Virus record (IMG/VR): IMGVR_UViG_3300009104_000038
Span: 1 to 43,690 of that record
Length of the DNA stretch: 43,690 nt
Reading direction: 5' to 3' (one strand)
Origin: a virus
The number at the start of each line of letters is the position of its first letter. Positions within the stretch are counted from its first letter, which is position 1. The position numbers and the translations under genes were made by a program. This document shows positions 4,756 through 24,245 of the stretch, piece after piece. Under the pieces are notes generated by a model. It saw only the letters and a list, made by a program, of their open reading frames with translations, was not told the origin of the DNA and did not search any database.

Positions 4756-5320
4756 GACGCGCACCCCTTTGGGTGGCTGGCGTTACTTTCAAAAAGAAAC
4801 CGGCCAGCTAATCACCGCGCCGCATTGGAACGCCTTGATCAACGCAGTTTACCGCCACCGCGAGGCCAACGAACTGGCCATTGATCCGGGGTTGGAAGAC
4901 GAGATCGAGGCGTTCATGTGTGATGAGATTCCCGATGGCTGCGAAGAGGTGGCGGATAGGCCGGAACGAAAAATCGGTCTGTCTGAAGTTGTGTCCTTCA
5001 CGAAAACGTGGGTTCATACGTTTCTTCGCGGCAATGAGCGAGTGGATCAAAAGGAGGCTGACCGGCGCAGCGTCGTCTGTGCCAACTGCCCAGACAACAT
5101 CGACGCCCATGGCTGCAAAACCTGCGCCACGGGGAATGTGGAGAAGCTGGTGAACACCCTGTCGGGGAGTCGCCAGACCAAGGCCGATCAACGCCTCAAG
5201 GTCTGCCGCCACTGCGGCTGCTTTAACCGGGCACAGGTCTGGTTCCCGCTGGATATTTTACAGAACAACCAACGCGACGAGGTTCAAGCCGCCTTGCCGC
5301 AAAACTGCTGGAAAAAATGA
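4736..5320 (+). CDS. Hypothetical zinc-ribbon protein between terL and portal
   Basis: This 194-residue protein starts inside the terL end (20-base overlap) and ends in the portal start, so all three are translationally coupled. The C-terminal half has paired cysteines: VCANCPDNIDAHGCKTC, then VCRHCGCF, then a final Cys near the end. This looks like one or two zinc-binding knuckles. The N-terminal half is charged and probably helical. The position suggests a packaging or head-assembly accessory, but no named family is recognised. Confidence 0.8.
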   Translation: MRQWKNKTRTPLGGWRYFQKETGQLITAPHWNALINAVYRHREANELAIDPGLEDEIEAFMCDEIPDGCEEVADRPERKIGLSEVVSFTKTWVHTFLRGNERVDQKEADRRSVVCANCPDNIDAHGCKTCATGNVEKLVNTLSGSRQTKADQRLKVCRHCGCFNRAQVWFPLDILQNNQRDEVQAALPQNCWKK

Positions 5321-7554
5321 ACGAACTAAAAAACATCAGTGAAGGTGGAACCGCACCGGAGACTCGCCTCAATGACGCCAAGGAGGTCATGGAGATGGTT
5401 AACAAAATGATCAGCGCGGACGAAACCCGCAGCAGGACTAGAGCGAAGGTGAAAGGTCTGGTGGATGGAAACGCTCCATACAATGCTGGCGAATTGCGCC
5501 GCGCTGGGCAGTCCTTCCGTACGAACGTCAACTTCCGCGAGGCTGAGTCATTCCTGAACATGGGCGTGTCTGCCTTCTTTGACGTGTTCGCTGAAGTGCC
5601 CACCTATGCCACCGTGAAGATCAACCATGGTGACGTTAACGATTCCGAAAAGTATTCCCGCATTATCACCGAGGAATTTGACCGGATGCAAAAGAAGGAT
5701 GGGAACTTCGACTACCTCATGCAGTTGTCGCAGCATGAAATGGTGTTGTACGGAACCGGCCCGCTGGTATTTGAGGACACTGTAGATTGGCGTTGCAAGC
5801 CGGTGAAGTCCTCTGACCTGCTTGTGCCAGACGGCTCGAAGTCTAATGTGGCCGACTGGGAGGTGTGCGCCATCCGCAGCAGCTATGCCGTGCATGAACT
5901 ATACGCTTTCATTCGCAACGAGGACGCTGCGAAGACGGCTGGCTGGGAGGTCGGGGCCGCTCGCAAGGCGATCATGGATGCTGCCCCCAAGGACAAAGGG
6001 TTTAGCCGGGACTCCACATGGGAAGACCACCAACAGTCATTGCGTAATAACGACCTGTCGCATTCGTCGCGATGCAAAGCCGTAGATGTTGCTCATGTTT
6101 TCTACCGAGAGTTCCCGTCCGAAGATAACCCTGAAGGTGGCATCTCGCACGCCATTGTGGATCGGCGCGGCGACGGCAGGAACTTCCTGTTCCGTAAGGT
6201 GCGACGCTACAAGTCATGGAGCGAGTGTGTTCACTGTATGTACTACGACAAGGGTGACGGCACTCACCACTCGGTGAAAGGCATGGGAGTAAAAATGTTC
6301 TCCGCGCTGGAACTGAAGAACCGGCTGCGCTGCTCCCTCGTTGACAGCGCAATGGCGCGGGCACAGATAATGATCCAGCCAGATTCACCCAACGACCTGA
6401 ACCGCTCCAGCGTGATCCAGATGGGGCAATATAGTGTCCTGCCACCGAACTGGAACGTGGTGCAAACCAACTCCAGCGGCGTACTGGACGCACCTTTGGC
6501 CGTGGAACGTGAACTGGAAGGCTTGATGCAAGCGAACCTGTCGCAGTACCGGCAGCGGCTAGAGAAGCAGGGAAACCCCCGCACCGCAACGGAGATTGAG
6601 GCCATCACCGCCCAGCAATCGATCTTGGGGAAAACCCAGCTAAACCGATACTACAGCCAACTGGACTCATTCTTTTCAGAGCGTTACCGGCGGGCAATTA
6701 ACAAGAACCTTACTGCGGATATGCCCGGTGCGGCTGATGCGATGGCCTTCCAAAAACGCTGTATTGAGCGTGGTTGCCCCCGTGAGTGCCTCGATAAGGT
6801 CGAAATGGTTCAGGCCACCCGCACTGCTGGAAGAGGCTCCTCAATGGAACGTCGAGCGATTATGAACCAGTTGATGTCCATTGTGACCATGCTGCCCGAA
6901 TCAGGCCGCAAACACGTTATCGAGGATCACATCGCCTCACTGGCTGGATACCACTCGCTCAACCGCTATTACCCCATGCCAGAGGAGGATGTAGACACAC
7001 AGGAACAGCAGCAGGAGGCCGCACGGGAGAATGCCCTGTTCAAGACCGGCGCAGTCATCCCCATCGCGGGCGGCGACAACCATGCCGTCCACGCCACTGT
7101 CCATCTCCAAGCCGCCAGCGAGGCAGTGGAAGCCGCCCAGCAAGGAATGGGCGACCTTGCGGAGATGGCCGCGTGGATGCAGTCCATCACGGAACACGTT
7201 GCGGGCCACCTCGAAGAGTTGTCTGTTGATCCTACTCGACGGGAACTCATGGAAGTCCTCGCTGAACAATTCAAGGAGGTGCAGAAGGCCGCAGACGAAA
7301 TGGCGCAAGCCGTTCAGCAGCAACAAGAGGCTGCTATGCAGCAGCAGCAACAGGCCGCGCAGCAGATGGCAGAGATGCAAGCCTTGCAGAACGGCCAAGA
7401 CCCCAAGGATCAACTGGCCCAGATGCGGGCCGAACGCGATGAGGCACGCCGAGATATGAAAGTTCAGAACGACCTATCTCGCAAGAACGCCAAGACCCAG
7501 CAGGATATGGCATTGAAGGATGCCAAGACTGCACAACAAATTATGAGGCAATGA
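5317..7554 (+). CDS. Portal protein (podovirus-type head-tail connector)
   Basis: The dodecameric portal forms the DNA entry and exit vertex and docks the terminase. Length (745 aa), position directly after terL and before scaffold, and the N-terminal pattern SFRTNVNFREAESFLN, YGTGPLVFED and DLLVPDGSKS all fit large podovirus portals. Residues about 610-745 are a Gln/Ala-rich, probably coiled-coil tail (runs such as VQQQQEAAMQQQQQAAQQ). This would correspond to the barrel region of P22-like portals. ATGA coupling is seen at both ends. Confidence rests on context and pattern, not on a search. Confidence 0.85.
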   Translation: MNELKNISEGGTAPETRLNDAKEVMEMVNKMISADETRSRTRAKVKGLVDGNAPYNAGELRRAGQSFRTNVNFREAESFLNMGVSAFFDVFAEVPTYATVKINHGDVNDSEKYSRIITEEFDRMQKKDGNFDYLMQLSQHEMVLYGTGPLVFEDTVDWRCKPVKSSDLLVPDGSKSNVADWEVCAIRSSYAVHELYAFIRNEDAAKTAGWEVGAARKAIMDAAPKDKGFSRDSTWEDHQQSLRNNDLSHSSRCKAVDVAHVFYREFPSEDNPEGGISHAIVDRRGDGRNFLFRKVRRYKSWSECVHCMYYDKGDGTHHSVKGMGVKMFSALELKNRLRCSLVDSAMARAQIMIQPDSPNDLNRSSVIQMGQYSVLPPNWNVVQTNSSGVLDAPLAVERELEGLMQANLSQYRQRLEKQGNPRTATEIEAITAQQSILGKTQLNRYYSQLDSFFSERYRRAINKNLTADMPGAADAMAFQKRCIERGCPRECLDKVEMVQATRTAGRGSSMERRAIMNQLMSIVTMLPESGRKHVIEDHIASLAGYHSLNRYYPMPEEDVDTQEQQQEAARENALFKTGAVIPIAGGDNHAVHATVHLQAASEAVEAAQQGMGDLAEMAAWMQSITEHVAGHLEELSVDPTRRELMEVLAEQFKEVQKAADEMAQAVQQQQEAAMQQQQQAAQQMAEMQALQNGQDPKDQLAQMRAERDEARRDMKVQNDLSRKNAKTQQDMALKDAKTAQQIMRQ

Positions 7555-7772
7555 AAATACCCGAATTAGACACCGAGGAGATTATGCACATCATCGAGTT
7601 GCTACGCGAAGATTTGATGGTCAATCGCAAGATGCTCGATGAACACCCGCTTGATGAAGCAGCTATGGACTCATTCTTTATGAGCCGCGACCTTTTAAAA
7701 CGAATCGCTTGTAATGCGATTATCATCACTTATGAACCTAGCACAATGGCGACAAGACCCGAACGCAACTGA
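7551..7772 (+). CDS. Small hypothetical protein downstream of portal (73 aa)
   Basis: The ATG at 7551 overlaps the portal stop as ATGA, which strongly suggests coupled translation. The product is acidic and helical (MKIPELDTEEIMHIIELL), with no membrane segment or known motif. Its end overlaps the next gene by 41 bases. It may be a head-assembly accessory by position only. Confidence 0.7.
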   Translation: MKIPELDTEEIMHIIELLREDLMVNRKMLDEHPLDEAAMDSFFMSRDLLKRIACNAIIITYEPSTMATRPERN

Positions 7773-8007
7773 GTCGGCGCAAAAGCTACTCAACAACAAG
7801 ACCTTCCAGAAAATGATGGAGGTCGCGAAGAACGAACTACCCACCAACCGCGTACTTCCGGCGGTCGGCACAGAGCAGCACAGCTTTGTGTACGCCTATG
7901 GGGTCGAGGTGGGATACCGGCAGTGTTTGGCGACACTGGAGACAATGGCCTCACCCATCCTTACCCCGGAAAACGTGGAGGCTACATTTGAAACGCAATC
8001 AGAATAA
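7732..8007 (+). CDS. Small hypothetical head-region protein (91 aa)
   Basis: Start at ATG 7732 (MNLAQWRQDPNATESAQ). An upstream ATG at 7714 is possible but would lengthen an already unusual overlap with the 7551-7772 gene. It has a GVEVGYRQCLATLE segment seen in small proteins next to podovirus portals. It sits 12 bases before the scaffold gene. The function is unknown. Confidence 0.7.
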   Translation: MNLAQWRQDPNATESAQKLLNNKTFQKMMEVAKNELPTNRVLPAVGTEQHSFVYAYGVEVGYRQCLATLETMASPILTPENVEATFETQSE

Positions 8008-8019
8008 AGGACGACGACA

Positions 8020-9122
<1,103 letters not shown>

Positions 9123-9126
<4 letters not shown>

Positions 9127-9554
9127 TACAACGCCGCCCATCCATTGCGATAATCCTCGTACTTGCATCGCACCCACTTGGTTGGGTAGCGAGGGTGCTT
9201 GCCTTGCTCCCAGAAAATCCCACGGGTTGCTTTCACTTCGTCCACAGGGATGACGTAGAATGCAGGGCCGCTGGCGAAATAGATAACGGCTACAATGTGG
9301 CTACAGTCATCAATCGTGTAGGCCACCTTGGAATAACGCCCACGCCGGAACAGGACGCGGAACACTCCGTCCTTTCCGGCGTGGGTTGATTTAACCTGTA
9401 TGCGGTGCAGCTTCTGCTTGTGCGTGGCAATGAGGTCGTATGGTTCGCTGTCGCCCAGCGGCATCGCCACCCCGAACCCCATCGTCATCAGTTCATGGGC
9501 AACCAACATCTCTGCCGCCGCCCCCAGCGGCTTTAGGTCTGCCCACCTTTGCAT
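9123..9554 (-). CDS. PD-(D/E)XK nuclease of the PDDEXK_5 / I-Ssp6803I type
   Basis: Start at ATG 9554 (MQRWADLKPLGAAAEMLVA), preceded by GAGAGGGAA, giving 143 aa. The motif order is GAAAEMLVAHEL (early Glu), YDLIATHKQ (Asp) and HRIQVKST (QxK). This is the PD-(D/E)XK variant with Gln in place of the usual Glu, as in the group I intron nuclease I-Ssp6803I family. It probably cleaves DNA as a free-standing homing-type nuclease or acts in recombination. It ends the minus-strand capsid/lysis block, stop-to-stop with the scaffold gene. Confidence 0.75.
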
Positions 9555-9556
9555 GA

Positions 9557-9808
9557 CTATTCCCTCTCGCCCACGCCCTCCAGTGCGCCCGCGTACCAGC
9601 CTTCCGGCAGCGTCACCTTGTTCTTGGATAACACCCACTTGCCGTCACGCAAAAAATACACCTTGCCCCTCACTTCGGGGCCAAGGCGCACCACGTCACT
9701 GCTTTCGTGAATGAACACCACCTTGCTGCTTCCGCAGCTTATCCCGAATGCCAGCACGAAAATCATCGCGCACAGCATCGGGAGTGTTCTGGTCGGTCGC
9801 TTCGACAT
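9557..9808 (-). CDS. Small lipoprotein, candidate outer-membrane spanin
   Basis: This 83-residue protein has a basic start (MSKRPTRTLP), a hydrophobic stretch (MLCAMIFVLAFGIS) and then Cys, which reads as a lipoprotein signal, although the lipobox -3 position is Gly. The mature part includes VRLGPEVRGKVYFLRDGKW. GGAGGTG sits 7 bases before its ATG, inside the overlapping 60-aa gene (9696-9878). An out-of-frame lipoprotein inside another small membrane-linked gene after holin-like genes resembles the Rz/Rz1 arrangement, in which a lipoprotein spans to the outer membrane at lysis. The spanin role is inference; the lipoprotein call is firmer. Confidence 0.65.
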   Translation of the reverse strand: MSKRPTRTLPMLCAMIFVLAFGISCGSSKVVFIHESSDVVRLGPEVRGKVYFLRDGKWVLSKNKVTLPEGWYAGALEGVGERE

Positions 9809-9878
9809 CTTTTTTCACCTCCCGCTGGATGAGTCCGGTTAGCCAATCGAGGATCGCTTTGAGGATTCCAGCCAACAT
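9696..9878 (-). CDS. Small amphipathic or membrane protein, candidate Rz-like partner (60 aa)
   Basis: The N-terminus MLAGILKAILDWLTGLIQ is hydrophobic to amphipathic, and the rest is highly charged (REVKKDVEAT to the end). It overlaps the lipoprotein gene by 113 bases in another frame and starts just after the holin-like gene stops. The order fits an inner-membrane spanin partner, but at 60 residues it is short for Rz. It could instead be another lysis accessory. Confidence 0.5.
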   Translation of the reverse strand: MLAGILKAILDWLTGLIQREVKKDVEATDQNTPDAVRDDFRAGIRDKLRKQQGGVHSRKQ

Positions 9879-9881
9879 AGG

Positions 9882-10085
9882 TTACTTCGATTTCGCGAGG
9901 CCGCGAGAGATGGTGTAGCCGAGGGCCGCTGCTGCCGAGCAGATGAAGCCAAACACCTTGTCCGCGTTGGATGCCCCTTCTGGGTCTACTACCCCTGCAC
10001 CCCATAGCAGGGAACAGATCGCCACAATTACCGTAATCCAAAACTCGGTACTTAAATAGCCGGGTTTAATATTCTTTGTCGCCAT
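9882..10085 (-). CDS. Holin-like protein with two membrane segments (67 aa)
   Basis: Start at ATG 10085 (MATKNIKPGYLSTEFWITV). Two hydrophobic helices are visible: ITVIVAICSLLWGAGVV (about 16-32) and DKVFGFICSAAAALGYTI (about 40-57). It ends with a basic tail (RGLAKSK). Small size, two membrane spans and a charged end fit a phage holin, which permeabilises the inner membrane at lysis. The endolysin gene is about 15 kb away, so function is inferred from topology and neighbours. Confidence 0.6.
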   Translation of the reverse strand: MATKNIKPGYLSTEFWITVIVAICSLLWGAGVVDPEGASNADKVFGFICSAAAALGYTISRGLAKSK

Positions 10086-10087
10086 GT

Positions 10088-10255
10088 CTAGTCGTCTTTC
10101 TTTTTGCTGTCCCGCGACCACTTCCATATCGTCCACGAAATCGTGACCGTCAGTAGCAGGATCGAGAGAGCGGTTTCAACGGTATCAAGAGTTACGGCAG
10201 CAAGGACGCCGCCGTTGATACCAAAAGTTTTTAAGTAGTCTGATAAGTCGTTCAT
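10088..10255 (-). CDS. Single-span membrane protein, possible holin or antiholin (55 aa)
   Basis: Start at ATG 10255 (MNDLSDYLKTFGINGG). One hydrophobic helix (about 28-47, SILLLTVTISWTIWKW) is followed by RDSKKKDD. No good Shine-Dalgarno precedes the ATG. It stops two bases before the next holin-like ORF begins, so the pair may work together. Family not recognised. Confidence 0.55.
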   Translation of the reverse strand: MNDLSDYLKTFGINGGVLAAVTLDTVETALSILLLTVTISWTIWKWSRDSKKKDD

Positions 10256-10264
10256 GGGAAAGGA

Positions 10265-10292
10265 GGGAGGCATCCCCGAAAGGATGCCCCCC
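10265..10292 (-). terminator. Hairpin after the major capsid gene
   Basis: Arms 10265-10275 and 10282-10292 pair at 10 of 11 positions with a six-base loop. The hairpin lies 15 bases after the capsid stop on the minus strand. The following tract is pyrimidine-rich but not a true T-run, so it may be a partial terminator or an mRNA 3' stabiliser that sets capsid and lysis expression apart. Confidence 0.45.
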
Positions 10293-10307
10293 TTTGACGA
10301 CGACTAC

Positions 10308-11564
10308 TTACGCAACAACATTGTCGCGCTTAAACAGGACGGTCGCGCCGTGGTCACCGAACACTGGCTCGAATGCCATTTCGTATGTGCCGAAGTGACG
10401 ACCCTTGCTCTCCAGTTCATCCACGCAATCTGTGTCGAACTTGTACGCGCCGGTAACGAACTTCCAGTCACCGGAGTAACTGTCAGCCGAGAAACCGAGG
10501 TTTCCGGGCACGCTGCTCGGAACCACCAGTTGACGCATCACGGAAGGCGTCAGCGCAATGGCAGCTTCATAAACGCCGTCGCCATCGCTGATGTCTTTGC
10601 CCGTGTACAGCGGGTTGATCTTCGTGCCCGCGCCCGCAGTGAGTTCACTGCTGCCGAGAGCCACGCGCTCGCTGATCCGGTCATAACCCGTGTCACCGCT
10701 GTTCCGTTTGAAACGCGGGGGATTGGTTACGACGATCAGGCGGAAGTTGCCCACCACCTTGTCCGCGCCAATGCGCTTGAGCAGTTCATTGCCAGAGGCG
10801 TGGCGGTAATCCGCACGGATGTTGTCATCCGCCTTGAGCAGATTGTGTGCTGCTTCCATGCCAATGATGAGCGGAAACACTGGGCCGTTCGGGCCGAGTT
10901 CCACGAAGCCATTGGAGTCACCCTCAGTCGCACCGGACTCAATCAGCTTGATGGCCAATTGATCGAGGTGAGCCGGGAGCAATTCCACCGTGTCCGCCAG
11001 CGCGTTGGTGCTGTCAGAGATGGCCTTGTTCGTGACCGCCTCATCATTCAGCGCGGCTGCGCTGGAGGTGGCTCCACTCAGGGTCACTTGGCGACCCTTC
11101 ATCATGTACTCATTCTGGAGTTTATTTTCCAGAACGCGCTTGGAATGCTTCGAGATTTCCTCGACGTAGGCGTTCATGAATGTGCCAACATTGTGTTGGA
11201 ACTTCAGGTTCTCCTTACAAACCACAGGCCCCCGGACGCTTATGCGCTCAGGACTGTAAGTTTGCTCGCTGAATCCCCACTCGACATCATTCCAGCTACG
11301 GTCGCAAAGACCGCCATCCGCGCCCATGTTGGCCGCAGTGCCGGAAGTCGTGGTGTCAACGATCTTCTCCCATGCCAACTCGTCATTGGTGGGGAGGCTG
11401 TTCTCGATGGTGAAGGTTGTTTGGGTTAAACCCTTGCCGAGCGGGTAACTGCCCTTGGGCAAAGCATTTAACCAAACCGAGTTATAAGTGGCCTTGCGGT
11501 GGACATCAGTGCCCAACGACTCAGTGGCCATTTTCATTGCTTGAAGAATATCTGTGCAAGCCAT
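10308..11564 (-). CDS. Major capsid protein
   Basis: Start at ATG 11564 (MACTDILQAMKMATESLGT), preceded by GAAAGGAA at a good distance, giving 418 aa; the longer reading lacks this site. The length, the monomer-like composition, the pattern (FMNAYVEEISKHSKRVLENKL, PLIIGMEAAHNLLK) and the position beside holin genes fit a podovirus HK97-fold coat protein. It is on the minus strand while portal and scaffold are on the plus strand, so the head genes are split between two transcripts. The large antisense ORF (10254-11429, plus) is a shadow. The call rests on context and family resemblance. Confidence 0.75.
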   Translation of the reverse strand: MACTDILQAMKMATESLGTDVHRKATYNSVWLNALPKGSYPLGKGLTQTTFTIENSLPTNDELAWEKIVDTTTSGTAANMGADGGLCDRSWNDVEWGFSEQTYSPERISVRGPVVCKENLKFQHNVGTFMNAYVEEISKHSKRVLENKLQNEYMMKGRQVTLSGATSSAAALNDEAVTNKAISDSTNALADTVELLPAHLDQLAIKLIESGATEGDSNGFVELGPNGPVFPLIIGMEAAHNLLKADDNIRADYRHASGNELLKRIGADKVVGNFRLIVVTNPPRFKRNSGDTGYDRISERVALGSSELTAGAGTKINPLYTGKDISDGDGVYEAAIALTPSVMRQLVVPSSVPGNLGFSADSYSGDWKFVTGAYKFDTDCVDELESKGRHFGTYEMAFEPVFGDHGATVLFKRDNVVA

Positions 11565-11754
11565 GATAATTCCTTTCCTTCTAGGATTAGGTTCATGGCG
11601 AGGTTGGAAGTCAGACGCCACCCGGCGCAGACAGACCTCGCCTGTCGTGCTCGGATGGCCATGCCGAAGTAGGGCCAAAGCGGTTGCCAGTCCGCCGGTA
11701 GGGCAAAAGTTTTTGCGTAATTATGCAGCCGCCGCTGCACCTTCTTTTTTACCA

Positions 11755-11875: not shown

Positions 11876-11921
11876 GCTCATAACCTGAAGGTCGGTGGTT
11901 CAAATCCGCCTCCCGCAACCA
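11876..11921 (+). other. attP core: 3' part of an initiator tRNA-Met gene
   Basis: The sequence runs from the anticodon loop GCTCATAACC (anticodon CAT) through a T-arm with stem GGTGG/CCGCC to the end TCCCGCAACCA. This matches the 3' half of bacterial tRNA-fMet. The 5' half is absent: bases before the loop (GATAA) do not pair with CCTGA, so tRNA identity starts about 11876. The integrase gene is 190 bp downstream. Integration at the host gene would restore the tRNA from the phage-carried 3' half. Confidence 0.85.
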
Positions 11922-11974: not shown

Positions 11975-12066
11975 GTTGCCCAAATTGTGAATATGTAGAA
12001 TTAGGCAGTGTATTGAATATGTATTACACTTGATACGTCATATGAATCCCTAGTTACCGGAAAAGT

Positions 12067-12096
12067 GGGCACTTATGGGCACTTATGGGCACTTAA
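12067..12096 (+). repeat. Putative right-arm integrase binding sites (three copies)
   Basis: Three contiguous 10-bp repeats, GGGCACTTAT, GGGCACTTAT and GGGCACTTAA, end 14 bases before the integrase ATG. Together with 11812-11830 they bracket the tRNA core, as P and P' arms do in lambda-type attP. Their position also allows the integrase to repress its own expression. Confidence 0.6.
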
Positions 12097-12110
12097 AAAA
12101 TAAAAAACCA

Positions 12111-13292
12111 ATGAAAATTACCTTCACCAAACACAACGGATACCGCCGCTGGAAGCTCGACGGACGCATCGCCGGACAGCGTATCCGGCGTTTCTATTGC
12201 TCCGAGGCAGAGGCCCGCAAGGCGGGCGACAAGCTGGAGGCCGAGGCCAATTCCGCCCGCGCCGCCTTCGCTCACTGCCGCAAAGTGGACATCTCCAAGA
12301 TGCTGCTCGCCCTCCAGTTGTGCCGCGAGGAAAACCGCGACATCGTGGAAGTCGTTACCAAGGCTCTGACCCAAGTGGCCCCCAACTCCCTGCCCCTTGG
12401 GTCGGTTTATCACCGCTACCTCAAGGAAAAGCGGGAACTCGGCGTGGCCCATTCCACCCTGAAAACCCTCTCCTGTACGCTGGAAAAGTTCTGCCAACCC
12501 GCTTGGAACGAGCCGATCAGCAGTATCAACCGCGATTATATCCTCAATTACCTCCGCACGGGCCGCGCCCCCAACGGACAGAAATGGCATACCCGCACCA
12601 AGATCGGGTATCTCAAGGAGGTGCAGGGCTTTTTCCTGTGGGCCGTCAAGGCTGGCTTTCTCGAACGCGATCCCGCCGCGACGGTGGCGCGGCCCAAGTT
12701 CACCGTCGCGGAACTGGACGAAATGGATTCGCGCAAGGAAATCCTGACCGTACCGGAATTAGCGCGGCTGCTGGCCCATTGCCTAACCTCCTACCCGCAC
12801 CTGTTGCCGCGCCTCACCGTCCAATGCTTCGCCGGTCTGCGCCCCAATCGGGAGGCGGCGGGCCTCCGCAACGAGGACATCATGCTCAAGGAGGGGCTGG
12901 TACTGGTGCGCGGCAAACACGCCAAGGATCGACAGCGGCGGTATGTAAAGATGAGCGACCCGCTCAAGGCGTGGATGGCCTATTGCGCGAAAAAGAAACT
13001 GACCTTCCCCTGCCCGAACTGGAAACGGGACTTCTTCGCCCTGCGCGTGGACGCCGAATTATCCGGGGCCAACTGGCCCAAGAACGCCACCCGCCATTCC
13101 TTTGCCAGCTACCATCTCGCCGCGTGCGGGGAGGCGGAAACGAAAACGGCACTGGGCCACGGCTCTTATGATATGCTGTTTCAGCACTACCGCACACTGG
13201 TCAAGGAAAGCGACGGGGCCGCCTTCATGGCCCTCACCCCGGAGAAAATCTTACAGAATGTGAATAACTTGTTAGAAAGGGAAGATTCGTGA
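12111..13292 (+). CDS. int: Tyrosine-type site-specific integrase
   Basis: It catalyses phage integration and excision at attP/attB. Start at ATG 12111 (MKITFTKHNGYRRWKLDG); the ATG at 12075 lies inside the arm repeats and is less likely. The product has 393 residues: an N-terminal arm-binding region, a core-binding SAM-like domain (about 95-190) and a catalytic domain. Catalytic residues seen are Arg in CFAGLRPNREAAG (about 244), Lys in GKHAKDRQRR (about 269), Arg in NATRHSFASY (about 328), His in ALGHGSYD (about 350) and Tyr in FQHYRTL (about 360). The first position of the HxxR box is Asn instead of His. No clear Shine-Dalgarno is present. Confidence 0.93.
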   Translation: MKITFTKHNGYRRWKLDGRIAGQRIRRFYCSEAEARKAGDKLEAEANSARAAFAHCRKVDISKMLLALQLCREENRDIVEVVTKALTQVAPNSLPLGSVYHRYLKEKRELGVAHSTLKTLSCTLEKFCQPAWNEPISSINRDYILNYLRTGRAPNGQKWHTRTKIGYLKEVQGFFLWAVKAGFLERDPAATVARPKFTVAELDEMDSRKEILTVPELARLLAHCLTSYPHLLPRLTVQCFAGLRPNREAAGLRNEDIMLKEGLVLVRGKHAKDRQRRYVKMSDPLKAWMAYCAKKKLTFPCPNWKRDFFALRVDAELSGANWPKNATRHSFASYHLAACGEAETKTALGHGSYDMLFQHYRTLVKESDGAAFMALTPEKILQNVNNLLEREDS

Positions 13293-13295
13293 GGT

Positions 13296-13382
13296 ATGTC
13301 TTTTATAAAGTATTACAAGCCCTACCCAACGGCAACCAAACGCAATAAAGCGATGAATGAAATGCTCTCGTTACTCGCATGA
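13296..13382 (+). CDS. Very small ORF between int and RHH gene (28 aa)
   Basis: It starts three bases after the integrase stop and ends in an ATGA overlap with the RHH gene at 13379. The product is MSFIKYYKPYPTATKRNKAM and eight more residues, basic and aromatic. The coupling at its end is the main evidence; function unknown. It could be only a leader that couples int and the regulator. Confidence 0.4.
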   Translation: MSFIKYYKPYPTATKRNKAMNEMLSLLA

Positions 13383-13567
13383 AAAAAATACACATCTCCC
13401 GTTCTGCCGCCCTCCAAGTGCGCCGGTTGAGTCAACAAACCGGGTTGCCCGTTACGTCGTTGGTTTCCGAGGCTATTCGTCTTGGGATTCAGGACGTTGA
13501 AACTCCGCGTACAGCTTTTCCAACTTCGGAAGGCCCGCCTGTAAACATTGCTCAATCACCGAGGTAG
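13379..13567 (+). CDS. Ribbon-helix-helix DNA-binding protein, candidate regulator
   Basis: A 62-residue product. MKKIHISRSAALQVRRLSQQ gives the DNA-contacting strand and first helix, and TGLPVTSLVSEAIRLGIQDV the second helix, in the order of Arc/CopG-type repressors, which act as dimers. The tail after about residue 45 looks unstructured. Its 3' end overlaps the opposite-strand RHH gene (13473-13724) by 95 bases. Such an overlap allows antisense interference. It could act as an excisionase-like or int-operon regulator. Confidence 0.65.
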   Translation: MKKIHISRSAALQVRRLSQQTGLPVTSLVSEAIRLGIQDVETPRTAFPTSEGPPVNIAQSPR

Positions 13568-13724
13568 CCGAGGTGTGCTGGATTTCCGCCAGCCGTTGCG
13601 CCTCTGCCCATAGCTCCGCATCAATCCGCATCGTGGTCACATGAGTAGACCGCTCCGCTGGCGCGGCCCGACGCTTGGCGGGCTTCGCCGATTTTCCCTG
13701 TTTTTTCTTCTTTTTCGCCGTCAT
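13473..13724 (-). CDS. Ribbon-helix-helix repressor candidate with lysine-rich N-terminus
   Basis: An 83-residue product. A basic lead (MTAKKKKKQGKSAKPAKRRA) precedes the RHH core: THVTTMRIDAELWAEAQRLA is the strand and helix 1, and TSATSVIEQCLQAGLPKLEK helix 2. GGGGAG lies a good distance before the ATG. It diverges from the RHH gene at 14012, and the 287-base gap between them holds several inverted repeats. That is the arrangement expected of a repressor and antirepressor switch. No CI-like HTH repressor is visible nearby, so this protein is the best prophage-repressor candidate, by inference. Confidence 0.7.
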   Translation of the reverse strand: MTAKKKKKQGKSAKPAKRRAAPAERSTHVTTMRIDAELWAEAQRLAEIQHTSATSVIEQCLQAGLPKLEKLYAEFQRPESQDE

Positions 13725-13793
13725 CTAACTCTCCCCCTGCCTGTGGGGGCGGGGCAACCTACACGCCGCCGCCCTACTTGCAAGTGTATACTA

Positions 13794-13806
13794 AACGTAA
13801 GACGTT
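13794..13806. promoter_or_regulatory. Small inverted repeat, candidate operator
   Basis: AACGT and ACGTT flank AAG, an exact palindrome with a 3-bp centre. It lies 70 bases upstream of the minus-strand RHH gene start, where an autoregulatory operator would be expected. Confidence 0.35.
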
Positions 13807-13871
13807 ACATTTGGGCTACACCTTCACGCATTTCCTAGTATTTAACAAGGGATTTTATACATACCCTTCCT

Positions 13872-13937
13872 GTGAAGATTTCGTAAAAAGGGGCGTTTTC
13901 TCCGGCGAGAAATATGCTGTTTTTAAGAAATCTTCAC
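13872..13937. promoter_or_regulatory. 66-bp interrupted palindrome in the RHH control region
   Basis: Outer arms GTGAAGATTTC (13872-13882) and GAAATCTTCAC (13927-13937) are exact inverted repeats. Inner arms TTTCTC (13897-13902) and GAGAAA (13907-13912) are centred on the same point (13904.5). Runs of A and T next to the outer arms extend the symmetry. GAATA/TATTC (13945-13956) is a further small inverted repeat. It lies in the 287-base gap between diverging RHH genes. It is probably a compound operator; a transcript cruciform or terminator is possible but lacks a T-run. Confidence 0.6.
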
Positions 13938-14011
13938 GGCCTGTGAATAACTATTCCGTATGTCTACTGTATTTCACTTGTAACACATCCGAAATGTTGT
14001 AATCTTCTCGG

Positions 14012-14194
14012 GTGCCGCAAAGGAACACCCAACTGAGTCCGGTCAAAGAGAGGCTTGTGTCTTTTCGACTAGGTAAAAATGACAAGCAAACACTCGACCG
14101 TCTTGCAGGAATGATGAGCGTCAGCGTGAGCGACCTTATCCGCCTGTGCATCAAGTCCGAACTCCCCAAGCTAAAGAAGAAGTATCGTGGTTGA
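14012..14194 (+). CDS. Ribbon-helix-helix protein upstream of dnaB
   Basis: It starts with GTG 14012 (no ATG fits the fold) and has 60 residues. KERLVSFRLGKNDKQTLDRL gives the strand and first helix; SVSVSDLIRLCIKSELPKLK the second helix. This is a complete RHH unit with a basic end (KKKYRG). It overlaps the helicase start by 8 bases, so it is the first gene of the early rightward operon and could control it, like a Cro-type regulator. No Shine-Dalgarno is seen. Confidence 0.65.
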   Translation: MPQRNTQLSPVKERLVSFRLGKNDKQTLDRLAGMMSVSVSDLIRLCIKSELPKLKKKYRG

Positions 14195-15527
14195 GGAGAA
14201 TCATTTAATCGCCACGCCGGTTCCTGCCTCGCTGGAGGCGGAGGCACAAGTGCTGGCGTGCTGCTTGCGCGAGGAGGAATTAGTCGATGAAGCAGCCACC
14301 TCATTGAAACCGGAAGATTTTTATGACCTGCGCCACCGCAATCTGTTTGAACTATTACTGAAACTGCGGAGCGCAGGGAAGCCCGTGGATGCCAGCGTGT
14401 GCATTCAGGAGGCCAAGAATTTACGGGGGGGCACTGAATCGGTGGGCGGCATCGCATATCTTGCGGGACTGCCAGACCGGGTGCCATCCCCGGCCCTTAT
14501 TACTTATGCCACTGGTGTTGTGCGCCACAAGGCGCAGCTTCGGCAGTGGCAGGAGTCCGCCCATTATATTCTTTCTACGGTTAACGCTGAAGGGATCGGC
14601 GACGACGAACGGCTGGATGAAATAGGAACCCACCTATCCCCCCTCATCCATGCCGACCGAAAGGGCGGGGAAGCCTCCGTGCGTGATGTGGTCAAAACGG
14701 CCATCGGAGAAATCGAACAGGCATTTGAACACAAGGGCAAATGCACTGGCATCCGCACCGGCTTCCCTGCCCTTGATAAATTAACAGCGGGGTTTCAGTG
14801 CGGGGATGTGCTCATCCTTGCGGCGCGGCCCAGCATGGGAAAGACCTCGCTGGCCATGAACATAGCCGAACACGTTGCCCTCGATGACGGCGTGCCGGTG
14901 GGATTCCTTTCGCTGGAGATGAACGATACCTCGCTCATCAAACGCCTTCTATCTTCCCGCGCCAACATCAACGGACACGACCTGCTTAACGGCAACCTTT
15001 CCGAAAAAGACATTCACGCGCTCACCAGCGTTGCCGCGAAGGTGGCTGCTGCGCCAATTCATATCAACGACAAGCCCGCTCTTTCAGTGCTGGAAGTAGG
15101 CGCAGCCATGCGCCGCATGGTGAACAAGCACGGTTGCAAGTTGATTGTCCTAGATTATTTACAACTGGTTCAGGCCAAGGCCGAGAATCAGACCCAACGC
15201 ATCGCCAAGGTTTCAAGTGCCGTCAAGGCTTCGGCCAAGGAGTTGGGAGTACCTGTCCTCGCACTGTCGCAGCTTTCCCGCGCAGCAGCCACCGAGGACA
15301 GGAAACCCCAACTCTCTGACCTTCGTGACTCTGGAGCTATTGAGCAGGATGCGGACTTGGTGATGTTCCTGTCTCGCGAGCGCGATGCCACGATGACGCA
15401 ACTAGATGTGGCCAAGCATCGAAACGGCCCCGTGGGCATCGTGGAATTGGAATGGGATGCCTCGCGCACCCGCTACCGTAACCCCGTGTATTGGATGAAA
15501 AACCATGCCCAAGTGGACGCAACATGA
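14187..15527 (+). CDS. dnaB: Replicative DNA helicase, DnaB family
   Basis: A hexameric 5'-3' helicase that unwinds the replication fork. Length 446 aa matches the family. GTG start at 14187. The N-terminal helical domain (about 12-115) has SLEAEAQVLACCLREEELVD. The ATPase domain has Walker A ARPSMGKTS (213-221), Walker B KLIVLDYLQLV (318-328), LALSQLSR (about 358-365) and DLRDSGAIEQDAD (about 378-390). No primase is visible, so host DnaG is probably used. Its stop is shared as ATGA with the downstream gene at 15524. Confidence 0.95.
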   Translation: MVEENHLIATPVPASLEAEAQVLACCLREEELVDEAATSLKPEDFYDLRHRNLFELLLKLRSAGKPVDASVCIQEAKNLRGGTESVGGIAYLAGLPDRVPSPALITYATGVVRHKAQLRQWQESAHYILSTVNAEGIGDDERLDEIGTHLSPLIHADRKGGEASVRDVVKTAIGEIEQAFEHKGKCTGIRTGFPALDKLTAGFQCGDVLILAARPSMGKTSLAMNIAEHVALDDGVPVGFLSLEMNDTSLIKRLLSSRANINGHDLLNGNLSEKDIHALTSVAAKVAAAPIHINDKPALSVLEVGAAMRRMVNKHGCKLIVLDYLQLVQAKAENQTQRIAKVSSAVKASAKELGVPVLALSQLSRAAATEDRKPQLSDLRDSGAIEQDADLVMFLSRERDATMTQLDVAKHRNGPVGIVELEWDASRTRYRNPVYWMKNHAQVDAT

Positions 15528-17765: not shown

Positions 17766-18095
17766 ATGAACATGGATGACGACTTTAATGTTTGGTTAAT
17801 TACATGGCCCAATGGGGATCAAACGATTGCTGGGGGTAGCGAGGATTCGGTTCAGCGTTGTGTGGATGAAATCGGATTTGTTCAGCACCCCTCCAAAGCG
17901 AACCACTCATCGAATGATTGCGGGGTAATGGTTCAAATCTTGACCGGAGAAATGACCGATGCGGGTGAGCCTTGGTTTGTGGATTTCAAGGGCGCAAAAC
18001 CTGTGGGCTGGGAGGATTTCAGTGAGAGCATTTTCAATAACAAAGACGAGCTTGTGGGGCTTGAGGCGCAAATTCTAGTGAACGCTGACAAATGA
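17766..18095 (+). CDS. Hypothetical acidic protein (109 aa)
   Basis: It begins one base after the nuclease stop and overlaps the next gene by four bases. MNMDDDFNVWLITWPNGDQT and the later FDFKG-like hydrophobic patches suggest a small alpha-beta fold. No catalytic motif is seen. Its place inside the replication operon is the only functional clue. Confidence 0.7.
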   Translation: MNMDDDFNVWLITWPNGDQTIAGGSEDSVQRCVDEIGFVQHPSKANHSSNDCGVMVQILTGEMTDAGEPWFVDFKGAKPVGWEDFSESIFNNKDELVGLEAQILVNADK

Positions 18096-18967
18096 TCCCT
18101 CCCACCCTATACCGCGTCCGCGCTTGGGACGACCAGTACGAGAATAACCGTTCTCGCGCCGTCTCTGATATGCGGTGGGTTCCGTTACCCAATAACCATG
18201 ACGGGGAAGGTTACTGCTTCGTTATGGCGCAACCCAACGCGGCAGAGATTTATGCCGCTTGGATATTGATCCTACAGGTGTCATCCCGCTGCGATCCAAG
18301 GGGGGTCTTGGTGCGGAACAATGGGCAGCCCCACACCGCCGCCACCCTCGCCGCAAAGACCCGTGGGCGCATCGAATGGTTCGAGGCTGCACTAGAGATT
18401 TTAGCCAGTGAAGATGTGTGCTGGTTGGAGTCGATTGCCCTCCAGCAGCCCTCCCGTGCCCTCCAGCCCTCCAGCCCTCCCACGGGAGGGCGCACTTTTT
18501 GCCCTCCCAGTGACGTTTCAACGGAAGATTGTGACGTTTCAATGGAAGAAAGTGACGCCGAAATCGCAAAAACTGACGAAGAAGGAAAGAAGGAAGGAAG
18601 GAATATAGGAGGGCAAGCCCTCCCACCCAGCGAGGAGGGTGAATCCGAGGGGTTGCTTTTGAGTGTGGAGCGGATTGTGAGCCACCTTAATCGCAAGACG
18701 GGGAGTAACTTTTCGCACGACTCAAAGCACACCATCTCAAAGCTCAAGGCCCGTATGAAAATGGCGGGAGTCACCGAGGAGGGAATCATTCAGATGATCG
18801 ACGCCAAGTGCGCTGAGTGGGGCGGCGACCGGAAATACTCCACCTACCTGCGCCCCAAGACTTTATTCGGCCCGGAAAACTTTGAGAACTATTACGCACA
18901 ACGGCAACCCGCCGCAGCGAACACCTATTCGGCAAGCGGCGCAAAGATGGAAGTCGTTAAGCCATGA
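18092..18967 (+). CDS. Replication initiator-like protein with conserved phage C-terminal domain
   Basis: A 291-residue product. Residues 1-115 look like a winged-helix DNA-binding part (TLAAKTRGRIEWFEAALEIL). Residues about 118-190 are a Pro/Ser/Asp-rich linker. Residues about 192-275 match the conserved phage C-terminal domain family (Phg_2220_C): HLNRKTGSNFSHDSKHTISK, then EWGGDRKYSTYLRPKTLFG and ENF. Such proteins are replisome organisers that bind the phage origin and load helicase. The linker is encoded by highly repeated DNA (18474-18623), reminiscent of lambda O, where the origin lies inside the initiator gene. Confidence 0.75.
   Translation: MIPPTLYRVRAWDDQYENNRSRAVSDMRWVPLPNNHDGEGYCFVMAQPNAAEIYAAWILILQVSSRCDPRGVLVRNNGQPHTAATLAAKTRGRIEWFEAALEILASEDVCWLESIALQQPSRALQPSSPPTGGRTFCPPSDVSTEDCDVSMEESDAEIAKTDEEGKKEGRNIGGQALPPSEEGESEGLLLSVERIVSHLNRKTGSNFSHDSKHTISKLKARMKMAGVTEEGIIQMIDAKCAEWGGDRKYSTYLRPKTLFGPENFENYYAQRQPAAANTYSASGAKMEVVKP
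18474..18623 (+). repeat. Iterons and palindromes: candidate replication origin
   Basis: Three 21-bp direct repeats start GTGACGTTTCAACGGAAGA (18510), GTGACGTTTCAATGGAAGA (18531) and GTGACGCCGAAATCGC (18552); the third is partial. On the left is a palindrome GCCCTCCC-AC-GGGAGGGC (18474-18491) with a third arm GCCCTCCC at 18501-18508. On the right, after a purine-rich A/G tract, is GGAGGGC-AA-GCCCTCC (18608-18623). All are inside the initiator gene and keep its frame. The order of iterons followed by a helically easy tract resembles lambda ori. Binding is inferred. Confidence 0.6.
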
Positions 18968-19068: not shown

Positions 19069-19614
19069 ATGGACATCAAAACACCACTGGGCAGGAAAAG
19101 CCTAAAGGACGAGCGCGAAGCTGTTGAGCGGTTCCGCGAATTGCACCCGTCCTTTGGCTGGATGGAGACAGAAAAGGGTCAACCCGCCGCAATGGACGGA
19201 TTCTTTTATACCTATAGCCAAAGCCCAATTGCCAACACTTACACCATGTCGGCAGTGGTGGAAGTGAAGTGCCGCAAGGAATCCCGCGAACATTTCCGCA
19301 CGCACTTCGACAATACATGGCTCATCACGCACCAGAAGCTGGTGGACGGGCAGAAGATCAGCAAACTCTGCCGCATCCCGCTGGTCGGCATTCTTTGGAC
19401 AAAACCAGATCACCATTTGTGCGTGGTCAAACTCACCCGAAAAGACGGCACATTCTGTTTCGACTACGAAGTTCGTGAAACCGAGACACAAGCCTCAGTA
19501 AATGGGGGCCGCGCTCGTCGCGCCAACGCTTTCATTCCACTGCAATACGCAACGGAATATCCATCGCATTACACCGCAAAAACCCAAAACGAAGGAGAAC
19601 TAAATAATGGCTAA
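19069..19614 (+). CDS. PD-(D/E)XK-like nuclease candidate (181 aa)
   Basis: The pattern Asp in PAAMDGFFYTY followed by SAVVEVKCRKE (E-x-K) is the PD-(D/E)XK active-site order. A Gln/Lys-rich helix follows (TWLITHQKLVDGQKISKLC), and the fold looks like a small endonuclease of the resolvase kind. It lies after the origin hairpin and before the DnaA-like gene. It could be a junction or nicking nuclease of replication; family not firmly recognised. ATGG overlap with the next gene (8 bases). Confidence 0.55.
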   Translation: MDIKTPLGRKSLKDEREAVERFRELHPSFGWMETEKGQPAAMDGFFYTYSQSPIANTYTMSAVVEVKCRKESREHFRTHFDNTWLITHQKLVDGQKISKLCRIPLVGILWTKPDHHLCVVKLTRKDGTFCFDYEVRETETQASVNGGRARRANAFIPLQYATEYPSHYTAKTQNEGELNNG

Positions 19615-19927
19615 AGCAACTTCAGAAGCACGAATTAGTAACGCTATTCTGAACCCTTTACTCAATGATATTGAGGAAATAACAGGCGTCACGCGCCATC
19701 AAGTATTAGGTAATCGCCGATACGATCATTACGCATTCGCCCGTTTCATGGTGTACCTAGCCCTCCGCGAGCATGAACACGGATACAGTTTAGCCGTGAT
19801 AGGGCGCACAATGAACCGGGATCACGGCGCAGTGACTCACGGCATCCGAAACATCAAGGCCCGCGCCAAGCTGGATAAGCGTGTACGCAAGCTGTTGGGC
19901 CGTCTCAAGAAGAAAGGTTGGTTATGA
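19607..19927 (+). CDS. Free-standing DnaA domain IV-like DNA-binding protein
   Basis: A 106-residue product. AFARFMVYLALREHEHGYSL and then IGRTMNRDHGAVTHGIRNIK is the DnaA domain IV helix-turn-helix, including the DHxxVxH signature (here DHGAVTHG). There is no AAA+ ATPase domain. It could bind DnaA-box-like sites, either to help phage initiation or to compete with host DnaA. It is translated as part of the run from 19069 and overlaps the following gene as ATGA. Confidence 0.85.
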   Translation: MAKATSEARISNAILNPLLNDIEEITGVTRHQVLGNRRYDHYAFARFMVYLALREHEHGYSLAVIGRTMNRDHGAVTHGIRNIKARAKLDKRVRKLLGRLKKKGWL

Positions 19928-21901: not shown

Positions 21902-22468
21902 CTAACTGGCTACTGTCTCTACGTCAACAGTCGCAGCAGATTCAGCGGATTCCGACTCGCCACTTTGTTTGGCAGCACGCCGCCGCTCCATTTCCTCGCG
22001 ACTGGGAAGTGCGCCCAACACACTGATGTTCACCAGCGGCTTTTCCACGGCAGAGTCAATGCCGTGGTTCTTACGCATTTGATCGTCCCAGACCTTCCAT
22101 GTCTCCGTAGCTTGCTTCAGCGTTTTCCAATCGCCCGCACGCGATGCCACTATGCCGCGCTCTATAAGCGCACCCAAATGATCCCCAGCCTGTAAAACGC
22201 GCTGTTGATGCTCCCCAGCCGCCATAGGCGTTAAGTCGCGAAGCTCCTTTACCTCATCCTTAATCCCTTTGATCTTGGCCTCCTGCTCCGCTTCGGCAGC
22301 ACGTTTCTGAAACTCTTCACGCGCCGCAGCCCATTGATGGTTCGCAGATAGCCGGGAAACATAGCTCAAGCTGATTCCGTACTCATCGCCCATTTCCCGA
22401 AGCGACATATTCGTTGTGACGTACTGCCGCTTCAGAAACTCTTTATCATACTTAACTGTGCCAGCCAT
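21902..22468 (-). CDS. terS: Terminase small subunit-like DNA-binding protein
   Basis: A 188-residue product. N-terminal helix-turn-helix in YDKEFLKRQYVTTNMSLREM followed by GDEYGISLSYVSRLSANHQW matches the DNA-binding end of terminase small subunits. A long charged helical middle and an acidic tail follow. It is alone on the minus strand, about 19 kb from terL, facing the plus-strand operons. It could still act as terS, because phages separate these genes, or be another HTH regulator. Confidence 0.6.
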   Translation of the reverse strand: MAGTVKYDKEFLKRQYVTTNMSLREMGDEYGISLSYVSRLSANHQWAAAREEFQKRAAEAEQEAKIKGIKDEVKELRDLTPMAAGEHQQRVLQAGDHLGALIERGIVASRAGDWKTLKQATETWKVWDDQMRKNHGIDSAVEKPLVNISVLGALPSREEMERRRAAKQSGESESAESAATVDVETVAS

Positions 22469-23082: not shown

Positions 23083-23107
23083 CCCCGCCGAAAGGCGGGG
23101 TTTTTTT
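23083..23107 (+). terminator. Rho-independent terminator
   Basis: CCCCGCC (23083-23089), GAAA loop and GGCGGGG (23094-23100) are followed by TTTTTTT. It is among the strongest terminators in the window and isolates the antirestriction gene downstream. Confidence 0.9.
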
Positions 23108-23130
23108 ATGCCCGCGCCGCCATCAATTCC

Positions 23131-23197
23131 ACCGAGGCGATGCCCTCATCAGCTAACACCGAGGCGATGCCCTCATCAGCTAACACCGAGGCGATGA
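23131..23197 (+). repeat. 27-bp tandem repeats carrying start codons (locus 1)
   Basis: Two full units beginning ACCGAGGCGATGCCCTCA and one partial unit lie at 23131-23197. Each contains an ATG in the frame of the antirestriction gene (23140, 23167, 23194), so each unit adds nine codons (MPSSANTEA) to its N-terminus. The core is repeated at 24135-24218. Confidence 0.9.
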
Positions 23198-24096
23198 GCA
23201 AACCGAAAACCTTTAACGAACTACACCACATAATGAAACGCGACATAAACGACATTATCACCGACCGCCTAATTGCCGCGCTGGAATCCGGCACAGCCCC
23301 TTGGCGGAAACCGTGGCGCGGTGGCGCATCGACGCCCCGCAACATGAAAAGCGGCAAAGCTTACCGAGGCATTAATACGCTGCTGCTGGGCTGCCAAGGC
23401 TGGGCCGATCCTAATTGGCTCACATTCAAACAAGCCAAAGAGCGCGGCGGGCAAGTACGCAAAGGCGAAAAAGCAACGCCGGTTATTTTCTGGAAATGGC
23501 TATTTAAAGACGAAAACGGCAAGCCGGTTTCCGATCCCAAAACGGCCAGCAAACGCATCCCTTTGCTCCGTTATTACTCCGTTTTCAATATCGAACAATG
23601 TGACGGCGTAGAAACTAATTGGGTGGCCCCGCCCTTGGCCGATCACGAGCCAATCGAGAACGCGCAAAAGATCATCGAAGGTATGCCGAACGCGCCAAAA
23701 ACGACGCATAACGAGGCACGCGCCTACTACTCGCCGGTTGAGGATCGCGTGAACTTACCCAAGCTCGGCCTATTTAACTCTCCGGAGGAATACTATTCAA
23801 CGGCCTTCCATGAGCTTGCCCATGCCACTGGCCACAAGTCGCGCCTAGATCGCGATGGCGTCACCGGTACGCATAGTTTCGGCTCGGCGGATTACTCAAA
23901 GGAAGAGCTGGTTGCCGAAATGGCGGCGGCGATGCTGTGCGGCCATGCGGGCTGCGAAACGGCGACCTTGGCAAACTCGGCAAACTATCTCGCGTCATGG
24001 ATTAAGGTACTTAAAGGCGACAACACGCTCGCGATCAAAGCCGGTGGCCAAGCGCAAAAAGCGGTTGACTACATCCTCGACGTGAAATGGGACTAA
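23140..24096 (+). CDS. ArdC-like antirestriction protein with metallopeptidase domain
   Basis: ArdC-type proteins bind single-stranded DNA and protect entering DNA from host restriction. The N-terminal domain shows DRLIAALESGTAPWRKPWRG and LTFKQAKERGGQVRKGE. The C-terminal zincin domain has HELAH (224-228, counting from 23140) and a likely third ligand in EELVAEMAAAMLC. Three in-frame ATGs are possible (23140, 23167, 23194); none has a standard Shine-Dalgarno. ATG 23194 (MSKPKTFNELHH) starts the conserved part. Nine-residue repeats (MPSSANTEA) come before it. The gene is isolated between a terminator and a GC hairpin. Confidence 0.88.
   Translation: MPSSANTEAMPSSANTEAMSKPKTFNELHHIMKRDINDIITDRLIAALESGTAPWRKPWRGGASTPRNMKSGKAYRGINTLLLGCQGWADPNWLTFKQAKERGGQVRKGEKATPVIFWKWLFKDENGKPVSDPKTASKRIPLLRYYSVFNIEQCDGVETNWVAPPLADHEPIENAQKIIEGMPNAPKTTHNEARAYYSPVEDRVNLPKLGLFNSPEEYYSTAFHELAHATGHKSRLDRDGVTGTHSFGSADYSKEELVAEMAAAMLCGHAGCETATLANSANYLASWIKVLKGDNTLAIKAGGQAQKAVDYILDVKWD
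23195..23220 (+). repeat. Junction repeat copy A (inside antirestriction gene)
   Basis: The first 26 bases of the dispersed repeat (TGAGCAAACCGAAAACCTTT then AACGAA) encode SKPKTFNE of the antirestriction protein. It is the only copy whose whole length is N-terminal coding sequence. Confidence 0.8.
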
Positions 24097-24102
24097 ATAA
24101 CA

Positions 24103-24134
24103 CGCCGCGCCCGTGGTGGATCGCGGGCGCGGCG
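24103..24134 (+). terminator. 11-bp perfect GC hairpin after antirestriction gene
   Basis: CGCCGCGCCCG (24103-24113) pairs with CGGGCGCGGCG (24124-24134) around a 10-base loop. No T-run follows; the ATG of the repeat mini-ORF comes right after it. It may block ribosome access or polymerase progress. Confidence 0.5.
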
Positions 24135-24245
24135 ATGACCTCAAAAGCTAACACCGAGGCGATGACCTCAAAAGCTAACACCGAGGCGATGACCTCAAAA
24201 GCTAACACCGAGGCGATGAGCAAACACAAAACCTTTAACGAATAG
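24135..24245 (+). CDS. Repeat mini-ORF copying the antirestriction N-terminus (36 aa)
   Basis: It encodes three MTSKANTEA units and then MSKHKTFNE before TAG. The last nine residues match the MSKPKTFNE start of the antirestriction protein, so this is a duplicated N-terminus with an extra set of 27-bp repeats (ATGs at 24135, 24162, 24189, 24216). It ends 8 bases before the 24254 gene. It may be a leader peptide or only a duplication relic. Confidence 0.45.
   Translation: MTSKANTEAMTSKANTEAMTSKANTEAMSKHKTFNE

Follow-up and report, generated by a model that had tools for sequence, protein, structure and literature searches.

The window, that is, the whole stretch of DNA analyzed here, is a 43,690-base record of an uncultured virus; it is linear and possibly lacks some sequence. 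From left to right, the region of interest contains the gene for the major capsid protein (MCP; minus strand, 10308-11591 or longer), its conserved leader, half of a tRNA gene, the integrase gene int, a small open reading frame (ORF1), a second one in reverse orientation (ORF2), a gap, a third small open reading frame (ORF3), and dnaB. ORF1 (13379-13567, plus strand), located downstream of int, encodes an RHH-like protein of 62 residues, ORF2 (13473-13724, minus strand) a divergent RHH protein of 83 residues, and ORF3 (14012-14194, plus strand) an RHH_1/CopG-like protein of 60 residues, counted from a GTG start codon whose assignment is uncertain. The dnaB gene (14187-15527, plus strand) encodes a DnaB-type replicative helicase (DnaB_C, E = 3.6e-85). 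A sequence-only reading of this DNA had placed three small open reading frames between the integrase and the helicase, and its coordinates were exact. ORF1 and ORF2 overlap tail to tail by 95 bases (13473-13567), and the divergent ORF2 and ORF3 are separated by a gap of 287 bases (13725-14011).

On the structural side of the region, the portal and scaffold genes lie on the plus strand and the capsid gene on the minus strand (5317-11678), with a PDDEXK_5 nuclease-like gene (9123-9638) between them; the relatives are arranged likewise. The leader of the MCP gene (11592-11745, minus strand) is non-coding and was conserved in 16 of the 16 contigs compared, including those without int, with 15 invariant columns. 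It had no Rfam match. Its predicted consensus fold includes some compensatory changes, and the leader is possibly a cis-acting RNA.

The int gene (12075-13292, plus strand; the ATG at 12111 is the likelier start) encodes a tyrosine integrase that matched phrog_1 (integrase, E = 3.8e-25) and was not detected by PF00589. Integrase relatives were found in the viral contigs L068 to L072 (34-36%), and the nearest integrases among cultured phages are those of Akkermansia phages. The attP core, CTCATAACCTGAAGGTCGGTGGTTCAAATCCGCCTCCCGCAACCA (11877-11921, plus strand), spans 45 bases and corresponds to the 3' half of a gene for initiator tRNA-Met (CAU), with CCA included. The same half is found between the MCP leader and int in the relatives L074 (identical) and L075 (one base off), and L068 carries at that place the 5' half of a tRNA-fMet gene, which was recognized by eye. 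ARAGORN reported no complete tRNA. An integrase combined with a tRNA-derived attP core is what temperate phages with tRNA att sites have, and the window belongs to an uncultured phage family that is probably temperate. Searches of genome contigs with the integrase and the MCP revealed neither a prophage nor a host; the host is therefore merely hinted at, as Verrucomicrobia, by the Akkermansia phage integrases. The MCP, ORF2, and ORF3 had no match among proteins from cultured phages, and the relatives of the terminase are distant.

All three small proteins had been proposed to be RHH proteins. This assignment was upheld by Pfam for ORF3 and by PHROG and profile-profile comparison for ORF2, and was weakest for ORF1, for which it depends on profile-profile comparison. 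ORF3 passed the Pfam cut-off of RHH_1 (24.0 versus 20.5 bits), and its family profile had weak RHH matches among PDB sequences (NikA, CopG). It overlaps dnaB and stands at the head of the replication operon, and 14 related contigs have an RHH gene at the equivalent position. ORF2 was below the Pfam cut-offs, and its best PHROG matches were Arc-like repressors (E = 2e-4). A search with the single ORF2 sequence was unsuccessful, a search with a two-sequence alignment returned the L068 contig alone, and the family profile had chance-level matches only among PDB sequences. Alignment of the ORF2 family with the ORF3 family by hhalign (96.7%, E = 4.5e-10, 51 columns) extended past the RHH core to a shared C-terminal motif, LPKLxKxY. 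This profile match, tail included, indicates that ORF2 and ORF3 are paralogues. The weak VapB match of ORF2 (17.9 bits, under the cut-off) would be accounted for if the protein were a VapB-like antitoxin or a partition protein instead of a lysogeny repressor. We regard this as very improbable since Arc-like repressors are the best PHROG matches and since no gene for a toxin or a partition ATPase adjoins ORF2 in the four phages that harbor it. The neighbors are int, ORF1, ORF3, and dnaB, and no toxin family, VapC/PIN included, was present among the matches listed.

ORF1 alone matched RHH_3 in Pfam with 13 bits (E = 0.1) and a transcriptional regulator in PHROG (E = 0.0076). A homologue is located at the equivalent place in L073 and L074, which are 99.98% identical and represent one virus (shuffle p = 0.003), and nowhere else among the relatives; its sole Pfam match is also RHH (E = 0.31). 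The profile built from these two sequences matched the ORF3 family (E = 2e-5, probability 77%) and returned nothing useful from PDB sequences. AlphaFold monomers of ORF1 and ORF2 contained two helices each and no strand (pLDDT of 67 and 74, respectively), and Foldseek searches with these models retrieved mostly RHH proteins (CopG, Arc, CdbA, TacA, and AmrZ), with no significant E-value. The codon-position GC content of the non-overlapping half of ORF1 was coding-like, and in the overlap ORF2 was the better frame. A chance antisense open reading frame is disfavored by the homologue, whose position is equivalent and whose overlap is similar. The start codon of ORF1 in L074 falls inside the end of int, suggesting coupled functions. 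ORF1 may be a partner of the integrase that assists integration or excision, possibly as an excisionase.

To establish how these genes are distributed, about 16 distinct related viral contigs were recruited with the integrase and capsid proteins. Four arrangements were observed between the capsid gene and dnaB. The window and L073/L074 have int, ORF1, reversed ORF2, ORF3, and dnaB. L068 has int, reversed ORF2, ORF3, and dnaB, as does L075 with an extra gene for a protein of 275 residues. Nine contigs (L069, L070, L071, L072, L079, L081, L082, L085, and L087) have int, ORF3, and dnaB, and no reversed RHH gene. In the fourth arrangement no int was seen: L080 and L086 have ORF3 before dnaB, and L077 and L078 have neither of the two. 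The contigs of this last group are fragments, and int could be elsewhere. ORF3 is thus located ahead of dnaB in every int-bearing relative, as well as in two int-less contigs. Homologues of ORF2 were limited to L068, L074, and L075, so that the gene is present in 4 of 13 int-bearing phages, the window included, and in none of the four contigs without int. This distribution assigns ORF3 to the replication operon, and ORF2 and ORF1 to the integration side. The earlier proposal of a single switch composed of all three RHH genes was not supported by this comparison, as ORF3 belongs to the replication module, ORF2 accompanies int in 4 of 13 phages, and ORF1 occurs in two, beside int. The best-supported description of the region is that of a junction, at which a lysogeny module (the tRNA-fMet attachment site, int, ORF1, and ORF2) appears to be joined to a replication operon (ORF3, dnaB, and the following genes).

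A tRNA-fMet half was located beside int in four of the four phages harboring ORF2. A search of the nine int-bearing phages lacking ORF2 with a tRNA T-loop pattern, which covers 3' halves, returned none. The integrase and DnaB trees required about three changes in the presence of ORF2, indicating that the link of this gene with int and the attachment site is not simply due to shared descent. Grouping of the ORF2-bearing integrases in a single clade was not supported by the tree.

The divergent gap had been described as full of inverted repeats. We found one dominant imperfect repeat with 31-nucleotide arms (13872-13902 and 13907-13937, 77%), which would form a large hairpin spanning 13872-13937, and a short motif near either end of the gap. 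As single-stranded DNA, the whole gap folded far better than shuffled sequences (z = -5.2, 0 of 200 shuffles), and positions 13860-13945 folded as RNA with a z of -4.0. The large hairpin was absent from the much shorter gap of L074. The short motif is operator-like and occurs once near each gap end, in opposed orientations: GTATACACTTG (13781-13791, minus strand) is located 57 bases upstream of ORF2, and GTATTTCACTTG (13969-13980, plus strand) about 32 bases upstream of ORF3. The int promoter contains an operator-like palindrome, GTGTATTGAATATGTATTACAC (12008-12029, plus strand; GTGTA-N12-TACAC), and the pattern GTATN{1,2}CACTTG, derived from its own three window sites, matched the window only at 12021 (int), 13781 (ORF2), and 13969 (ORF3), for an expected number of 0.06. 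A non-circular search with the int site of the window alone returned only the ORF3 copy, with one mismatch, and one chance-level match. This outcome, like the derivation of the pattern from its own sites, weighs against the model that we prefer.

Contigs were scanned with a profile derived from the palindromes of the int promoters (GTGTATTC-N6-GATATAC). In the window, the best non-self match adjoined ORF2 (13783; leave-one-out p = 0.007) and overlapped the motif at 13781-13791. In L074, the second-best match was upstream of ORF3 (26.5 bits versus 10.2 for the next independent match); the 20-base site of the int promoter of this phage had a single other copy, upstream of ORF3 with two mismatches, and shuffles gave 0. 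The repeated site of L075 is another one, the 17-base TGTGCTACAAATGACAC, which occurs at int and in front of both ORF3 and the extra gene (expected number 0.03). Matches between the int and ORF3 promoters of the same phage had p values of 0.005 for L074, 0.005 for L075, 0.03 for L069, 0.04 for L068, in which the match was a different, AT-rich one, and 0.11 for the window. The sites thus vary between clades and yet agree within one phage, as expected for a regulator encoded by the phage itself. The extra gene of L075 is located between int and ORF2, and its product has an apparent membrane segment. The third operator-like copy of this phage (8161-8177) overlaps the end of int and directly precedes the extra gene, which is possibly a lysogeny-linked gene under the same control.

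The shared motifs might be arm-type sites of the integrase or a host promoter type, rather than operators for RHH proteins. The att half of L068 is flanked by two copies (positions 82 and 296), in L068 and L074 the right half of the motif looks like an extended -10 element, and the overlap with promoter elements in some phages also counts against the model that we prefer. We nevertheless consider this explanation improbable since the ORF3-promoter copy of L074 is located about 1.7 kb away from the int-promoter copy, the motif is absent elsewhere on the same contigs (L074 and L075), and a generic scan for sigma-70-type sites revealed no promoter in the window region.

A palindrome of similar form is present at the same place, in the int promoter, in L068, L074, L069, L071, and L081. 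The last three phages lack ORF2, indicating that the original binder was probably ORF3; ORF2 would have a share in the operators. The presence of the palindrome in these phages, and the absence of ORF2 from 9 of the 13 int-bearing phages, count against our preferred model and in favor of its principal rival, according to which ORF3 alone would bind the operators and autoregulate the int and replication programme, with ORF2 as an accessory and integration occurring without classical repressor-based lysogeny, as reported for T7-like cyanophages (PMC8776855). Several of the phages without ORF2 have int, ORF3, and dnaB consecutively on one strand, and no prophage of the family was detected by pattern-limited searches of 84,980 species genomes, which likewise counts against the preferred model. 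This explanation is in our view a serious one, though rather unlikely, because ORF2 is found only with int, because its four carriers all have a tRNA-fMet half, and because the gene was gained or lost about three times and always occupies the same divergent position.

The absence of a CI-type HTH repressor from the window, noted at the outset, was confirmed among the matches listed in a Pfam scan of its 52 open reading frames. The HTH matches listed were of the DnaA C-terminal type (19607-19927) and weak HTH_38/sigma-type matches fitting the small terminase (21902-22468). No other candidate regulator and no antirepressor were present among the Pfam and PHROG matches listed for the window, and HTH_3 exceeded its cut-off in none of 17 related records. 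These results bear on the possibility that the true lysogeny repressor is an unrecognized protein encoded elsewhere in the phage, with the RHH genes merely tuning replication and integration. Many small open reading frames had no match among those listed for Pfam and PHROG, and the linear record is possibly incomplete; the negative searches nonetheless make this explanation unlikely.

The pair formed by ORF2 and ORF3, located where a switch between dormancy and replication would be expected, shares with CI/Cro systems the presence of divergent paralogous regulators adjoining a replication operon. As in immC of lambda and P22, where CI (C2) and Cro are encoded between the integration and replication modules, the window would have shared operators. 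It differs from immC by an RHH instead of an HTH fold, by the lack of a cleavable C-terminal domain, and by the absence of recognizable CII- and N-like genes. Since the HTH (Cro/C1) fold was sought and not found, the pair is not a member of the CI/Cro family in spite of a similar logic. Our preferred model, to which we give an even chance, is that of a CI/Cro-like pair built from RHH proteins, in which ORF2 would be an int-linked repressor and ORF3 an autoregulator, with operators shared by the two and ORF1 assisting the integrase. The model builds on layout, paralogy, co-occurrence, and motif recurrence, all of which can be read from the sequences. Being almost confined to the int and replication promoters, the motifs would place both gene sets in one circuit. 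Short operators at the int, ORF2, and ORF3-dnaB promoters would be bound by ORF2, ORF3, or both. ORF3 would be the autoregulatory regulator of the replication operon, repressing its own operon and also int in a CopG- or Cro-like manner. ORF2, a candidate divergent lysogeny repressor found only with int, would silence the replication operon in the prophage. ORF1 would assist the integrase, possibly as an excisionase. What we infer is the assignment of proteins to sites, repression, immunity, and the role of ORF1.

A stronger version of the preferred model is tentative and has in our opinion less than an even chance of being correct. Two paralogous RHH proteins only would form a complete, bistable, CI/Cro-like switch, sharing operators with the int promoter, these operators changing in concert between clades. 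Such a switch would mean that a family of bacterial phages had invented the divergent-repressor switch independently, and its lysogeny half (ORF2, int, and att) would come and go as one cassette next to an RHH-dnaB operon that is conserved.

The earlier suggestion that a switch with this layout, based on RHH proteins only, would be unusual was partly sustained, since RHH regulators of lysogeny have precedents, whereas open-licence papers yielded no bacterial phage in which the switch consists of RHH proteins only, nor one with a divergent RHH pair at int/dnaB. The RHH repressors Arc and Mnt of P22 act on the antirepressor Ant, and immI is secondary to the repressor C2 and not essential for lysogeny (PMC11016777). 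Like P22, whose two small RHH repressors control each other and phage genes, the window encodes small RHH proteins, but its genes are located at int/dnaB and its scans revealed no HTH repressor. F55 of SSV1 is a small RHH protein that is described as the main viral player in the maintenance of lysogeny and binds to short sites repeated across several promoters (PMC9608457). The candidate sites of the window resemble this situation, except that SSV1 is an archaeal fusellovirus with one RHH protein, in contrast to the divergent paralogous pair at int/dnaB. Like the plasmid copy-number repressors of the CopG family, ORF3 is a short RHH protein heading a replication operon and matching the RHH_1 (copG) model, although it would control a phage dnaB operon instead of a plasmid rep gene. 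T7-like cyanophages (S-TIP37) have an integrase and an att site, no homologue of a known repressor, and no stable lysogens (PMC8776855). The window's family similarly has int and att without a recognized classical repressor, but four of its phages have the divergent RHH gene. Control of lysogeny by RHH proteins is therefore already known from F55 and, in a secondary role, from Arc and Mnt; with respect to the open-licence literature, the new element would be that a bacterial phage has, at int/dnaB, a divergent pair made up of RHH proteins only.

Many environmental phages harbor an integrase and no recognizable repressor, leaving their temperate status in doubt. The window offers a concrete case, in which a small RHH gene found only with int and a tRNA-fMet site lies opposite a paralogue that heads the replication operon, and in which the candidate operators have precise positions. 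If the preferred model is correct, a short RHH gene oriented away from a replication operon could point to lysogeny where the repressor searches now in use find nothing.

Four additional features were observed beyond dnaB. A replication-initiator-like protein (Phg_2220_C) is encoded at 18092-18967, and a separate small protein consisting of a DnaA C-terminal domain alone at 19607-19927. Near-identical short repeats encoding SSANTEAM or SKANTEAM are located at the start of an ArdC-like gene and just past it (23106-23200 and 24087-24245), and the SKxKTFNE start recurs after the second, possibly as the result of a partial duplication. A single open reading frame for 2449 residues occupies 27572-34921 on the minus strand, amid tail-side genes.
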